Assembly: GCA_001723645.1 (NCBI GenBank) | Contig: MDLC01000013.1 | Span: 1 to 64,000 of the forward strand | DNA: 64,000 nucleotides | DNA from: Candidatus Endobugula sertula | GTDB taxonomy: Bacteria > Pseudomonadota > Gammaproteobacteria > Pseudomonadales > Cellvibrionaceae | Reading direction: 5' to 3' | In this document: one piece after another, positions 14,146 through 48,429 of the stretch | Numbering within the stretch: the stretch's first letter is position 1 | Layout of the letters: the number at the start of each line of letters is the position of its first letter | Program-made: the position numbers and the translations under genes | The notes under the pieces: model-generated | The model's input: only the letters and a program-made list of their open reading frames with translations | The model's database searches: none | Told to the model about the DNA's origin: nothing

Positions 14146-14631
14146 CTACTCTGTTTCAAAACAGGCTCCGGCACGATTTTTAGCCACATTACTATGATGA
14201 AATAGGCGACCATTCATCGCAATATAGACGTCTGCTGAAAGTAGTTGCACTGCTGCTAGTGCAAAGCCCAGGTTAAATGGTGCATCACTACAACGCATAC
14301 GGGCGGGCTGCATGGCACCTACTAATACGATTGTCTTGGTCGATAGGTCATAGGTCGATAGCATTTTGGCTGTTTGTGCCATAGTATCTGTACCATGAGT
14401 AATAATAATCTGCTTGGATTTCGTAGCGGCGACCTTTTCACTGATGTGTTGCCGATCTTCTTGGGTTATTTCTAGACTATCTTTACGCAGTACTTCCTCT
14501 ACCTGATAGTCAATCGTTACATTCCCTTCTTGCAGGATGGGAGTAACCTGAGTATCGCCAATACTGAACTGACTGTTCGCATCAAAGTACAGTTTATCAA
14601 AGGTCCCCCCCGTTGTGAAAATAGTTATCAT
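14146..14631 (-). CDS. Short asparaginase-like protein (N-terminal domain only)
   Basis: About 161 residues matching only the N-terminal domain of type I/II asparaginases (whole enzymes are about 330). Both catalytic threonine motifs are kept: TTGGTFDK near the start and THGTDTM at about residue 80; a later GAMQPAR segment matches the family. Single-domain proteins of this kind occur in gammaproteobacteria as their own family, so this is not necessarily a truncation; activity is unproven. The ATG at 14631 follows AGAGG by 5 bases and is preferred over a GTG two codons earlier. Confidence 0.75.
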   Translation of the reverse strand: MITIFTTGGTFDKLYFDANSQFSIGDTQVTPILQEGNVTIDYQVEEVLRKDSLEITQEDRQHISEKVAATKSKQIIITHGTDTMAQTAKMLSTYDLSTKTIVLVGAMQPARMRCSDAPFNLGFALAAVQLLSADVYIAMNGRLFHHSNVAKNRAGACFETE

Positions 14632-14782
14632 AGGCACCTCTTAGCCATTATTACTTTAATAGATTGATGGTAACGCCTAAAACGGTTCCCATTGACACTT
14701 TTGTTGTTGGTCAATGTTATCTTAGCATTTTTTATTAGCTTCACTATACTGAAAGTAATCACCGAAATATGGAGGGCTTCTG

Positions 14783-16003: not shown

Positions 16004-17410
16004 TTACGACTGCATTTTTTCAGCGATCTCTTGTAGCATCTCCTGCGATTCTAAAATCATGTCCATCGCTTCAAGGGCATCCTCTCTTTTTAATTGAAAG
16101 CGATCCAGAGTTGCATCGGATACAGGCTTTGCAGATACTCCCATGTGAATCCCTTTTTCATTTAACAATTTTTTGGTGATATAAATCAATACGCTATATT
16201 GCCAGTGCTCACCGGAATACGTTGGGTTATTTTGATGACGCAAAGCAGTGTATACCTCTTTGGGTAGATTCCAAAAGTCCATTAACCATGCAACTAGTTG
16301 ATTACGGTCTACACCGATGATCTTTTGCTCTATGGTATCAATGGCTGCATGGGGATTCCCATCAATATGCTCACAGATTGTTTCAAATTTATCGGGGAAT
16401 ACTTCAGCCATAATTAAGTAACCAAAATTATGTAACAGCCCTGCCAGGTAAGAACTGCCATAACCGGGACGTAATTCACGAGGCATACAACAGATAAGAG
16501 ATTCTGTACACGCTGCGACATAGACGGACTGTTGCCAATAAGACAGTCCGCCATCAGGACACCTGGTGGGCAATTTCAGGGTATTACCTAGTGCTAGACC
16601 TAAAGCTAGGTTCATTACCATGTCAAAGCCCAATACCCGAACTACCGCATCATGAATCGATTTAATCATGCCCGGTGCCGAGTAATAAGGCGACGACGCC
16701 CAACTCACCACCTGAGCAGCTAGACTGGCATCTAGTTCAATGACTTCGCATAGGTCGCTGACATCCACATTAGGGTCGACCCGCAATTGGATAATACGTT
16801 TGGCAATTGCGGGTAAGGGTGGCAGCTCTAAGGTTTCTTCCAAGCGTTGTTTAATACGGCGCTGGCTAAACTGCCCAACACTGTGGCTAATCTGCTGATA
16901 ATCCGTATCAGAAGACATGGATACGTTAATGGCATTGAGCGGGGTAGATATATCACTAACGACGGTTGCAGAGAGTAGTTTTTGAAACGACTCATTATCT
17001 AGTTTGATGTGTTGATTATTAATACCCAACGCCAATAACAGATTTTTGTTGTCTAATAATTTACTATCTACAATCGTGGGTAAATTCCCTATCTGAGGCA
17101 TCGCGGCCATCGATTGCAGCCCCAGCTTAGACACCACCCTTTTGAGCCCTTCTCCGATAACAGGGGTGTAAGGGTCTCCCATGGCACGTTCAACTGAATC
17201 CAGATCCAAAATACTTTGATTGGGGGCAATAGCCAGCAGTTTTTCTTGTTGGAAATTTTGCAACAGTTGTGCCCGTGCGATCTGCTGTCCGGAGTTTTCT
17301 GTTAGTTGATGTACGTCTGCGAGTGGTGGAAGTGGCAGATCAGCCAATGAATAAACCACATTGTGCTTTTTTAATACTTGTTGAATACTAGAAGGGACTG
17401 TCACAGGCAT
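16004..17410 (-). CDS. HDOD domain protein with N-terminal YbaK-like region
   Basis: 468 residues. The C-terminal half (about 195-400) is an HDOD domain (LPPLPAIAKRIIQLRVDPNV, then VLGFDMVMNLALGLALG), related to HD phosphohydrolases but usually lacking the metal-binding His-Asp pair and acting in signalling. The N-terminal part (about 1-150) resembles a YbaK/ProRS-associated fold, a combination known from Pseudomonas in the same position beside recG. The molecular role is unknown. It lies between ubiC and recG on the same strand. Confidence 0.85.
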   Translation of the reverse strand: MPVTVPSSIQQVLKKHNVVYSLADLPLPPLADVHQLTENSGQQIARAQLLQNFQQEKLLAIAPNQSILDLDSVERAMGDPYTPVIGEGLKRVVSKLGLQSMAAMPQIGNLPTIVDSKLLDNKNLLLALGINNQHIKLDNESFQKLLSATVVSDISTPLNAINVSMSSDTDYQQISHSVGQFSQRRIKQRLEETLELPPLPAIAKRIIQLRVDPNVDVSDLCEVIELDASLAAQVVSWASSPYYSAPGMIKSIHDAVVRVLGFDMVMNLALGLALGNTLKLPTRCPDGGLSYWQQSVYVAACTESLICCMPRELRPGYGSSYLAGLLHNFGYLIMAEVFPDKFETICEHIDGNPHAAIDTIEQKIIGVDRNQLVAWLMDFWNLPKEVYTALRHQNNPTYSGEHWQYSVLIYITKKLLNEKGIHMGVSAKPVSDATLDRFQLKREDALEAMDMILESQEMLQEIAEKMQS

Positions 17411-17534: not shown

Positions 17535-19637
17535 TTAAGCGTTGGCATACTTTTCACTGTTTCCCAACCATCGCGCAATTAATGTTTCCGTTTGCTCAGG
17601 GTTTTCCCGAAGCAGCGTTTCTGCGTGAGTTTTCACGGTGGGCATCAAACTCAGGTCTCGACGTAAATCTGCTAGGGTAAAATCAATATCGCCGGTTTGC
17701 CGAGTTCCCAAGACTTCACCAGGGCCGCGTAGCTGCAGATCAATTTCAGCAATTTTAAAGCCATCATTGGTCGTACGCATGGCTTTTAAGCGCTCTTTAC
17801 TCTGTAACGATAGATTGTCGCCATAAAGCAGCACACAGTGGCTGGTAACACTCCCCCGGCCAATGCGTCCACGCAGCTGGTGTAATTGTGCCAGGCCTAA
17901 ACGCTCTGGGTTTTCGATAATCATCAGACTGGCATTGGGGACATCCACCCCCACTTCAATGACTGTCGTAGCGACGAGCAGATCAATATTACCTGTTTTA
18001 AAAGATTTCATGATTTCGTCTTTTTCCTGACTTTTAAGACGACCATGAACCAAGCCAATAGAGAGCTTAGGAAGCAGCTCTTTTAAAACTGCAGCAGTCT
18101 CTTCAGCCGCCTGGGCCTCAAACATTTCAGACTGCTCAATCAATGTACATACCCAATAGGCCTGCCGTCCCGATTGACAGGCATGATCAATACGCTCAAT
18201 AACTGTCTGTCGCTTATGCTGGCTGATAATGACGGTTTTTACCGGAATCCGACCTTTAGGTAATTCATCAATGACTGAATAGTCAAGGTCAGCATAGGTA
18301 CTCATTGCTAGTGTACGGGGAATCGGCGTTGCGGTCATAATTAATTGATGGGGAATGACTGCATCCTGATAAGTCTCTTCGCCGTCTATCCCATCTCTTT
18401 GCATGCCTTTACTGCGTAAACTCAAGCGCTGATGAACACCAAATCGATGCTGTTCATCAATAATAATCAGAGCCAAATCGTTAAAAATCACATCTTCCTG
18501 GAATAAAGCATGAGTTCCCACCACGATATGGATATGGCCTTCTTCTAGTCCTTTCAATTGTTCTCGGCGTTCGTTCAGTTTTTGTCGCCCGGTTAACCAG
18601 CCAATGGTTAAGCCAAGAGGCACAAACCATTGTTCAAAGTTACGGCGATGTTGCTCCGCCAGGATTTCGGTGGGAGCCATAATAGCTACCTGACGATGGT
18701 TGGCAGTTGCCTGTAAAGCAGCCAGAGCAGCCACCACCGTTTTACCCGCCCCCACATCCCCCTGTAATAACCGCATCATCGGAACAGAACGAGTAAGATC
18801 ATGTTGAATTTCTGCTACGACACGTTGTTGTGCTGCGGTTAATGTAAAGTATAAGGCTTGTAAAAACGCCTGTTCTTTATTTTTTTCGACGACTAAGGGT
18901 ATTGCAGATTGCTTATGTCGTTGCTTGCGTAAACGCAATAGACTGAGTTGATAGGCGGTGAGCTCTTCAATAACCAATGCTTGCTGATAGGGATGAGTAC
19001 CCTCCAATAATTGTTGAAGGTTCGCTTCTTTTGGTGGAGAATGAAGATAGCGAAGTTGCTCCAGTAAAGAGGTGTTTTGAGGGTGATTTTGGGGTATTAA
19101 GCTTGTAAATTCATACCCTTTAAAGTAAGTAAGCGCCAACTTAATAAGGCTGCGTAAACGTGGTTGAGTGACACCATCAGTGATGGGATAGATTGGTGTC
19201 AATGTTTGTTCCAAAACGGGTGTTTTTGTACCTGCCCCAATGACCTGATATTCCGGATGATAGATTTCCAGACCTGACGCCCCACGGCGGGCTTCTCCGT
19301 AACAACGAACGGTGAAGCCAGTTGCCAGACGGGTACGTTGAGCATTCGAAAAATAGTAGAAGCGTAGGTTAATCGCACCACTATCATCTTGAATACGACA
19401 CAGTAAGCTGCGACGTTTACCAATGATCACATTGGTCCCTATCACCTCCCCTTGAACTACCACATATTGGAATGGTTGCAAACTCCCTATAGGGGTGATT
19501 CGGGTGCGATCTGTATATTGTCGAGGCAAATGGAACAGTAGGTCCTGAAGAGTGACAATTCCCAGCTTTTTCAGTTTCGCTGCTAGCTGAGCACCCACCC
19601 CTTTAAGCTGAGTTACCGAATCAGTGGGTGAGTGTAC
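17535..19637 (-). CDS. recG: ATP-dependent DNA helicase RecG
   Basis: It remodels stalled replication forks and branch-migrates Holliday junctions. About 700 residues, the expected size. An N-terminal wedge/OB domain is followed by a superfamily 2 helicase core: Walker A LLQGDVGAGKTVVA, DEQHRFG (motif II), TATPIPRTL (motif III), and QLRGRIGRG (motif VI). The ATG at 19637, giving MVHSPTDSV, fits the family start better than one 15 codons earlier. It overlaps the end of oxyR by 17 bases, as in the oxyR-recG pair of Pseudomonas. Confidence 0.96.
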   Translation of the reverse strand, partial: VHSPTDSVTQLKGVGAQLAAKLKKLGIVTLQDLLFHLPRQYTDRTRITPIGSLQPFQYVVVQGEVIGTNVIIGKRRSLLCRIQDDSGAINLRFYYFSNAQRTRLATGFTVRCYGEARRGASGLEIYHPEYQVIGAGTKTPVLEQTLTPIYPITDGVTQPRLRSLIKLALTYFKGYEFTSLIPQNHPQNTSLLEQLRYLHSPPKEANLQQLLEGTHPYQQALVIEELTAYQLSLLRLRKQRHKQSAIPLVVEKNKEQAFLQALYFTLTAAQQRVVAEIQHDLTRSVPMMRLLQGDVGAGKTVVAALAALQATANHRQVAIMAPTEILAEQHRRNFEQWFVPLGLTIGWLTGRQKLNERREQLKGLEEGHIHIVVGTHALFQEDVIFNDLALIIIDEQHRFGVHQRLSLRSKGMQRDGIDGEETYQDAVIPHQLIMTATPIPRTLAMSTYADLDYSVIDELPKGRIPVKTVIISQHKRQTVIERIDHACQSGRQAYWVCTLIEQSEMFEAQAAEETAAVLKELLPKLSIGLVHGRLKSQEKDEIMKSFKTGNIDLLVATTVIEVGVDVPNASLMIIENPERLGLAQLHQLRGRIGRGSVTSHCVLLYGDNLSLQSKERLKAMRTTNDGFKIAEIDLQLRGPGEVLGTRQTGDIDFTLADLRRDLSLMPTVKTHAETLLRENPEQTETLIARWLGNSEKYANA

Positions 19638-20550
19638 CATGGGCTTTACGTTGTCCTTGCTGAATGGCAGAACGCAATACATCCACCGCCTTATGTCGTG
19701 GAAAACTGGCCCTCCAGGCTAGACCCACTACCCGTTTGGCATTGACATCCGTTAGAGGGCGAGTCACTAAAGTATCTGGGGTATAATGACTGGCTGCTGC
19801 TGACTCAGGAAGAATCGTAATCCCGATACCCGATGCTACCATATGGCGCATGGTTTCCAGTGAGCTGCCTTCGGTTGCAGTACGAATATTACCACTGTTA
19901 TCTGCAATGGTTGTTTTAATATTGGGCATAACTTCTAAAATCTGATCACGAAAACAATGTCCTTCACCCAGTAATAGCACGTTCTCATCGCTTAAGTCTT
20001 CTGCTTGTAAGGCTTCTTTTTCTGCTAGTGTATGGTTGCTCGGGAGTAACACGACAAAATTTTCATCATACAGTGGTTGGGTTACCACATCGGCTTCTGT
20101 AAAAGGTAGGGCTACAATAATCACATCGAGATCACCTTTGCGCAGGCGCGGGCGCAAACTAGCCGTATAGCCTTCTTCAATAAATAAAGGCATTTTGGGA
20201 GCGATCTCCTGCAATTGGGGAATAAATTGTGGAAATAAGTAGGGGCCGATGGTAAAGATAGCTCCGACTTTTAAGGGGCTGCCCAACTGGTCTTTCCCAG
20301 ATGTTGCAATATCCTTAATGACGGATGATTGTTCCAGTACAATCTGGGCTTGGGCCACAATTTGCTCACCCATCGGTGTGGGTTGAACACGGGTTTTTGA
20401 CCGTTCGAAGATGCTAATACCCAGCTCGTCTTCCAATTTTTTAACCGCAACGCTGAGCGTAGGTTGTGATACATTACAGCGATCAGCGGCTTGACCAAAA
20501 TGTTGGTCCTGGGCAAGGGTAACAATATACCGAAGTTCAGTGAGTGTCAC
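19621..20550 (-). CDS. oxyR: OxyR-type hydrogen peroxide regulator lacking the resolving cysteine
   Basis: A 309-residue LysR-type regulator: winged helix 1-60 (AADRCNVSQPTLS recognition helix) and a substrate-binding-like domain. Peroxidatic Cys199 is in GHCFRDQ, exactly at the E. coli number. Position 208, normally the resolving Cys, is Met (codon at 19927-19929). The only other Cys is residue 25, in the DNA-binding domain. The rest, including SLETMRHMVASG and GITILPE, is typical OxyR. It heads an oxyR-recG operon. Whether it forms a disulfide with another partner is unknown. Confidence 0.93.
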   Translation of the reverse strand: MTLTELRYIVTLAQDQHFGQAADRCNVSQPTLSVAVKKLEDELGISIFERSKTRVQPTPMGEQIVAQAQIVLEQSSVIKDIATSGKDQLGSPLKVGAIFTIGPYLFPQFIPQLQEIAPKMPLFIEEGYTASLRPRLRKGDLDVIIVALPFTEADVVTQPLYDENFVVLLPSNHTLAEKEALQAEDLSDENVLLLGEGHCFRDQILEVMPNIKTTIADNSGNIRTATEGSSLETMRHMVASGIGITILPESAAASHYTPDTLVTRPLTDVNAKRVVGLAWRASFPRHKAVDVLRSAIQQGQRKAHGTLTH

Positions 20551-46845: not shown

Positions 46846-48429
46846 TTGCCTACATTGACACAGACTTTACAAGCGATTGCCACTTGTCCTAACTATGCTG
46901 GTATAATCCATACGGTACGAGGTATTGAAAAGGAAAGCCTACGTACGACACCCGAAGGCACTCTTGCTACCAGCATGCACCCTCAGGCTCTGGGCTCAGC
47001 ACTGACTCATCCACACATGACAACGGATTATAGCGAAGCGTTATTAGAGTTTATTACCAGTCCCAATACCGATATTGAGCTGGTGTTAAAGCAGCTCTAT
47101 GAATTACATACCTATACTTATCAACATATTGGGGATGAACAACTTTGGGTTAGCAGCATGCCCTGTATGTTGGGGAAAGAGAACGATATCCCTATTGCAC
47201 AATACGGTTCATCCAATAGTGGTGTTATGAAATCGATTTATAGATTGGGTCTTGGGCATCGCTATGGACGTTCCATGCAAACCATTGCAGGTATCCATTA
47301 TAATTTCTCGGTGCCCGATGAGTTGTGGATGTTTCTGCAATCTCAAGAAAACAGTAACTTATCACTTAAAGACTTTAAAACCCAAGGTTATTTTCGCCTG
47401 ATACGTAATTTTCGCCGCTATTTTTGGCTATTAGTTTATCTTTTTGGCGCTTCACCCAGTGTTTGTAAAAGTTTTATTAAAAACCGTCAACACACTTTAG
47501 TCCCTTTTGGTAATGATACCAGTACCTTATACGCGCCTTTCGGAACCTCTCTTCGTATAGGTGATTTAGGGTATCAAAGCAATGCTCAGCAATCACTCAT
47601 TATGACTTACAATTGTCTCGAAAGTTATATTCAAACTCTATGTTGCGCCATTACTCAAACACATCCCTATTACCGTAATATTGGCACTAAAGACAATACA
47701 GGCCAATATCAACAGCTTAACGATAGCCTGTTGCAAATTGAGAATGAGTTTTACAGTGTTGTTCGACCCAAACGTACTAGCCAAAGTGGTGAACCTGCAT
47801 TATCAGCTCTTGCCAAAAGAGGCGTAGAGTATATTGAGGTGCGCTGCTTGGACCTAAACCCTTACAACCCCGTAGGGATCAATAAGCAACAAATGCAATT
47901 TCTGGATACTTTTCTATTGTATTGCTTGCTCTCTGACAGTCCGGCTTCTGATGAGGTTGAACATCATTATATTCAAGAAAACCAAAAGCGTATGGTATAC
48001 CAAGGGCGTGATCCGAATTTAATGATCTATGATCGGGGTAAAGAACGTTCCATGAGGGAATGGGGACACGACATCATGGTTCATCTGGTGCAGGTGGCCA
48101 ATGTGTTGGACAACGCAATAGATGCTTCAATGTATTCAAACAGCGTAATGACTGAGGCAGAAAAGCTACAAGATGACACATTGACTCCTTCAGCGCGTAT
48201 ACTGATAGATATGGAAGAACAACAGATGAGCTTTTACCATCTTGTTATGAAGCTGTCTCTACAACATAAGCAGTTTTTTCTTGAACAAACGTTGAATAAC
48301 CCCCAAAATTATCGGGATATGGCAAGAAGTTCACTGAAAAAGCAAGAGCAAATAGAGCACAGCGATACCATGAGCTTGGATCATTACCTAACAAACTATT
48401 TCTCCCAATATGCCTGTAAGGCTCGATAA
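46846..48429 (+). CDS. gshA: Glutamate--cysteine ligase
   Basis: First step of glutathione synthesis. 527 residues, the E. coli/Pseudomonas type. Motifs: RGIEKESLRTTPEGTLA near the start, TTDYSEALLEFITSP, AGIHYNFSVPDELW (about 150), and YIEVRCLDLNPYNPVGI (about 330). The start is TTG with AGGA 7 bases upstream. The fliL-like gene converges at its end. GST and glyoxalase genes elsewhere in the window use its product. Confidence 0.96.
   Translation: MPTLTQTLQAIATCPNYAGIIHTVRGIEKESLRTTPEGTLATSMHPQALGSALTHPHMTTDYSEALLEFITSPNTDIELVLKQLYELHTYTYQHIGDEQLWVSSMPCMLGKENDIPIAQYGSSNSGVMKSIYRLGLGHRYGRSMQTIAGIHYNFSVPDELWMFLQSQENSNLSLKDFKTQGYFRLIRNFRRYFWLLVYLFGASPSVCKSFIKNRQHTLVPFGNDTSTLYAPFGTSLRIGDLGYQSNAQQSLIMTYNCLESYIQTLCCAITQTHPYYRNIGTKDNTGQYQQLNDSLLQIENEFYSVVRPKRTSQSGEPALSALAKRGVEYIEVRCLDLNPYNPVGINKQQMQFLDTFLLYCLLSDSPASDEVEHHYIQENQKRMVYQGRDPNLMIYDRGKERSMREWGHDIMVHLVQVANVLDNAIDASMYSNSVMTEAEKLQDDTLTPSARILIDMEEQQMSFYHLVMKLSLQHKQFFLEQTLNNPQNYRDMARSSLKKQEQIEHSDTMSLDHYLTNYFSQYACKAR

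Follow-up and report, generated by a model that had tools for sequence, protein, structure and literature searches.

The window analysed here is a 64,000-nucleotide stretch of the genome of Candidatus Endobugula sertula. On its reverse strand lies oxyR (19621..20550), which has a GTG start and encodes a LysR-type regulator of 309 residues, recognised from its open reading frame, from profile matches and from its similarity to the OxyR of Pseudomonas aeruginosa. Domain matches cover an N-terminal HTH DNA-binding domain (HTH_1, residues 3-62, 20365..20544) and a C-terminal regulatory domain (LysR_substrate, residues 88-298, 19657..20289), both on the same strand. The downstream neighbour, recG (17535..19682, reverse strand), scores above its family-model cut-off and its predicted start overlaps the 3' end of oxyR; this adjacency is found in the window and in all seven relatives checked. 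But is the regulator a genuine OxyR? Its best NCBIfam model is OxyR, at 234 bits, under the curated cut-off of 329. Three relatives that do carry the resolving cysteine, Cys208, score 237-249 bits on the same model, likewise under the cut-off, so the low score reflects the OxyR type of the group and not the absent Cys208. Among solved structures P. aeruginosa OxyR comes closest (PDB 4x6g, phmmer E=2.8e-113), the nearest relatives by sequence are OxyR proteins rather than other LysR regulators, and the GHC(F/L)RDQ motif with Cys199 is present together with T100, T129 and the equivalent of R266. No second OxyR was found in the 3.35 Mb, 100%-complete genome, where the next LysR-type protein is only 29% identical; a search for a copy with both cysteines elsewhere in it thus found none. 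A plasmid search with the oxyR locus gave no match.

What sets this protein apart is residue 208. Residue numbers follow the E. coli regulatory domain, with which the window protein coincides up to 208; they agree with PDB entries 1I69/1I6A except for the engineered substitutions in those entries. The reverse complement of positions 19927-19956 reads TGT TTT CGT GAT CAG ATT TTA GAA GTT ATG, translated as C199 F R D Q I L E V M208, with the TGT codon of the peroxidatic Cys199 at 19954..19956 and ATG at the resolving-cysteine site at 19927..19929. The first-pass annotation of this DNA had described just this arrangement, and on re-reading the codons agree; the one further cysteine that it had placed in the DNA-binding domain is Cys25 (20476..20478, reverse strand), which is invariant across 37 alignment rows. 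Cysteines 25 and 199 are the only two in the protein, Cys199 is the sole cysteine of the regulatory domain, and the resolving Cys208 that marks a two-cysteine OxyR is missing. Neither a new cysteine in the window regulatory domain nor one common to the Cys208-less proteins was found that could take its place, and a replacement resolving cysteine is thus ruled out. With Met at 208 and no substitute, a Cys199-Cys208 disulfide is impossible, which bears out the earlier claim that the canonical intramolecular bond could not form.

Could Met208 be an error of sequencing or assembly? An alignment of close relatives had been proposed as the check, and it gives a clear answer: both congeners, two independent genomes, have Leu at 208 (codons CTG and TTG), the nearest other genus has TGC, and Cys208 is kept in all 27 other Cellvibrionaceae genomes whose locus was read. 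Turning TGY into ATG would need three base changes, and this, together with the Leu codons of the congeners, excludes an error in practice; the chance of one is negligible, and the idea was dropped as the congeners lack Cys208 too. Given CTG and TTG in the congeners, a path from Cys through Leu to Met is easy to see in the codons. The gene is also well kept. Comparison of oxyR among the congeners gives a dN of about 0.14 with dS saturated, and OxyR is 79-83% identical between them, compared with 68-70% for the neighbouring RecG and 54-55% for the product of the divergent upstream gene. Judged by these rates, the window OxyR is under strong purifying selection and is not decaying.

How widespread is the loss? 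In an order-wide sample of 294 genomes, 172 have GHCxRDQ-x4-Cys, and in 10 the OxyR carries a different residue at that site; the resulting figure of about 5% is a lower bound, as T-initial codons other than TGY went uncounted and divergent motifs were missed. One further match in this sample (L133) carries an in-frame stop and was discarded as a chance match. A pattern scan of GTDB, with one genome per species, returned 91 stretches. About 30 of them are genuine OxyRs that have Cys199 but lack Cys208; the pattern had demanded Cys199, so that its conservation in this set is not evidence. Residue 208 is Leu, Met, Val, Ser, Asn or Ala in these proteins, which come from Porticoccaceae, Pseudomaricurvus (Val), Halospina/Halovibrio/Vreelandella and Oleiphilus (Val or Asn in Halospina/Oleiphilus), some betaproteobacteria and a few distant groups. 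For Porticoccaceae, 61 genomes were searched at the protein level, an unbiased approach whose outcome can be taken as evidence. All 24 close orthologues lack Cys208 (Leu in 21, Met in 3), and C199, H198, T129 and R273 are each present in 24 of 24 and T100 in 23; three more distant matches retain a cysteine at or beside 208, and 34 of the 61 genomes have no OxyR at E<=1e-60. Nine of the 24 orthologues also have Gly for Arg at 201, two residues past Cys199, which alters the sensor site still more, in genus g73 and a few others (for example L216 and L230). The first-pass annotation had held that Met being common at this site in working OxyRs of the family would count against its reading; Leu or Met is indeed fixed in the putatively working OxyRs of the related Porticoccaceae, so that this objection applies in part.

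Were these losses inherited from one ancestor? A 66-row OxyR tree was built with residue 208 masked. In this tree the window genus joins a sister with Cys208 (support 100/99), Pseudomaricurvus stands beside another Cys208 sister (100/99), all Porticoccaceae group together (100/98) and so do Halospina and Oleiphilus (100/97). At least four changes are needed to account for the well-supported branches, and four is also the number across the 5-95% range of the bootstrap trees. Constraining the window genus and Porticoccaceae together is rejected (p-AU 0.028), which disfavours a single origin shared with Porticoccaceae, whether by descent or by transfer. A wider tree of 98 rows gives nine changes, a figure made unsafe by long branches. 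On these phylogenies, loss of Cys208 is common to the whole genus, recurrent, with at least four independent origins, and fixed in Porticoccaceae.

The rest of the sensor has stayed in place. The window protein has T100, T129, H198, D202, Q203 and R273 (R266 in E. coli), and among 42 Cys208-less OxyRs T100 and T129 are found in 40 and R273 in all 42. The peroxidatic pocket is as conserved as in the Cys208 relatives. In a predicted model of the window protein (mean pLDDT 80, pTM 0.59, with loop 215-225 unreliable) a helix spans 199-207 and residue 208 follows immediately, the arrangement seen in reduced Neisseria meningitidis OxyR (PMC2881104). The modelled regulatory domain superposes on that of reduced P. 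aeruginosa OxyR with a TM-score of about 0.9 and at 1.6-2.9 A, and it is predicted to adopt the reduced-type fold.

How does such a protein compare with known regulators? P. aeruginosa OxyR (PDB 4x6g, 4y0m, 4xws) shares its domain layout and Cys199 pocket, but has Cys208 where the window protein has Met208, and switches through the Cys199-Cys208 disulfide. E. coli OxyR (1I69/1I6A) belongs to the same family and has the same Cys199 and pocket (T100, T129, H198, R266), but works by a two-cysteine disulfide switch and loses regulation in its C208S mutant (PMC6831875). The '1-Cys OxyR' of Deinococcus radiodurans, DR0615, also has one redox cysteine left of two and is proposed to act through sulfenic acid (PMC2225504). 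However, DR0615 keeps C210, the equivalent of E. coli Cys208, and has Thr at the Cys199 position, the reverse of the window protein (PMC2225504, PMC2881104). The analogy with the Deinococcus type was thus rejected, the retained cysteine being the other one there, a point on which the first-pass annotation was silent. Mycobacterial OxyS, too, is a LysR-type regulator of oxidative stress without the Cys199-Cys208 switch; it differs in sensing through Cys25 in the DNA-binding domain, whose oxidation abolishes DNA binding (PMC3260234). The closest parallels are the OxyRs of Porticoccaceae (Porticoccus sp. W117, SAR92 clade H231, LSUCC0057), which have Cys199, Leu or Met at 208 and an intact pocket, although their loss is independent of that in the window genus. 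Among open-licence papers we found none on natural OxyRs with Cys199 but without Cys208 and, in those listed, no study of Porticoccaceae or SAR92 OxyR proteins.

How, then, might an OxyR without its resolving cysteine work? We consider it probable that the window OxyR is a single-cysteine redox regulator, switched by modification of Cys199, and we infer that oxidation of Cys199 takes place in the cell and controls transcription. In such a mechanism peroxide or sulfane sulfur would convert Cys199, held in its conserved pocket, into a sulfenic acid, a persulfide or a mixed disulfide with glutathione. The modification would alter the state of the tetramer and its DNA with no Cys199-Cys208 disulfide, and thioredoxin, glutaredoxin or GSH would reset it. 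Long-term conservation of the pocket across several lineages favours this reading. There is precedent for the chemistry: S-OH, S-NO and S-SG forms of E. coli OxyR have been proposed to be active (reviewed in PMC3953959), and for P. aeruginosa a 2026 paper described persulfidated C199 as a single-Cys activated state (PMC13295329). Data from engineered C208 mutants, in which the response is generally abolished, favour another reading, in which Leu or Met at 208 holds the reduced-type conformation and the protein, conserved for DNA binding, is a peroxide-blind basal regulator, either a constitutive repressor or a basal activator. In N. meningitidis the C208A protein still represses but does not activate (PMC2881104), in P. 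aeruginosa C208A leaves basal katA and ahpC normal and removes the H2O2 response (PMC13295329), and in E. coli C208S abolishes the polysulfide induction of OxyR promoters (PMC6831875). The replacement is always Leu or Met in the window genus and Porticoccaceae, and the equivalent cysteine of Shewanella oneidensis OxyR sits in a wholly nonpolar cavity when reduced (PMC8787470), where Leu or Met may stabilise the reduced form. Moreover, as C199S/A mutants lose repression or DNA binding, Cys199 and its pocket could be conserved for structural reasons. Yet a role in DNA binding alone does not obviously need pocket residues as conserved as those of the Cys208 relatives, and Ser, Asn, Asp, Ala or Val at 208 in other lineages means that bulky hydrophobics are not the whole story. 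A peroxide-blind protein is a serious alternative, though a less probable one.

The remaining alternatives fare worse. Sensing might pass to an inter-subunit Cys199-Cys199' disulfide or, as in mycobacterial OxyS, to Cys25, which is the sole other cysteine, is invariant and has the number of the regulatory cysteine of OxyS (PMC3260234). But the Cys208 relatives have Cys25 just as invariably, so there has been no compensating gain, and Deinococcus OxyR gave no intermolecular disulfide (PMC2225504); we regard either route as improbable. Decay of an unneeded regulator as a prelude to gene loss might be suspected from the many Porticoccaceae genomes that lack OxyR and from the two congeners in which katG is missing. 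It is hard to reconcile with an intact frame, a low dN against saturated dS, conservation better than that of the neighbouring genes and a variant that has persisted long-term through the whole family Porticoccaceae, and is very unlikely. A loss that is genus-wide, recurrent and fixed in Porticoccaceae, with the Cys199 pocket intact, makes absence of sensing or decay less likely than Cys199-only sensing. The first-pass annotation had thus listed the right options; sensing by Cys199 alone is the one preferred, the inter-subunit disulfide is without support and no sensing at all is the less likely outcome.

What would such a regulator control? The window genome encodes a KatG and two peroxidases of the Prx type; a PF00199 catalase was found neither there nor elsewhere in the genus. 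KatG lies at G000:C79:7249-9105 (L169) in the window genome and was not detected in the congeners G001 and G002, one of which is just 89% complete; the congeners may rely on their Prx-type peroxidases. Upstream of the window katG no significant OxyR box was found with the E. coli tandem consensus, and the lack of a strong box there and of a detected katG in the two congeners count against the Cys199-only reading. With matches mostly at chance level, the scan of the window genome by the E. coli consensus gives no evidence for or against regulation of katG or prx. A footprint CTAT-N7-ATAAAG lies 5' of prx in all three congeners (L201, L196, L195) in an otherwise diverged spacer, and the katG upstream region of a Porticoccus with Met208 has an OxyR-like box that agrees at 16 of 20 positions and was matched by no shuffle. 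The Porticoccus box counts in favour of the Cys199-only reading and suggests that OxyRs lacking Cys208 may continue to bind the classical targets. The aligned oxyR upstream region of the three congeners has no clear conserved box. As context for S-thiolation, the window itself has gshA (46846..48429, forward strand; 564 bits, cut-off 393), which encodes glutamate-cysteine ligase, the first enzyme of the glutathione pathway.

The Cys208-less variant is natural, recurrent and selected. For two decades it has been debated whether OxyR needs the disulfide or whether Cys199 alone suffices, mostly on point mutants of two-cysteine proteins. Repeated natural losses of Cys208, some in cultured bacteria and with the sensor otherwise intact, allow orthologues to be compared directly, and these evolution-tuned one-cysteine OxyRs offer a ready natural test of the disulfide requirement. 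A bolder and rather doubtful proposal is that they form a class keeping the peroxidatic cysteine only, arisen independently in several lineages and fixed in Porticoccaceae, which was retuned from an H2O2-triggered disulfide switch into a graded sensor of Cys199 modification (persulfide, S-glutathione or sulfenic acid). If this were true, the class would be the counterpart in nature of the disputed 'molecular code' model.

Two other reading frames of the window, at lower coordinates than recG, may be mentioned. The one at 16004-17410 encodes an HDOD-domain protein whose N-terminal part is a YbaK-type tRNA-editing domain, a combination that seemed unusual, and a short frame of 163 residues at 14146-14637 resembles, by eye, the N-terminal domain of L-asparaginase alone.
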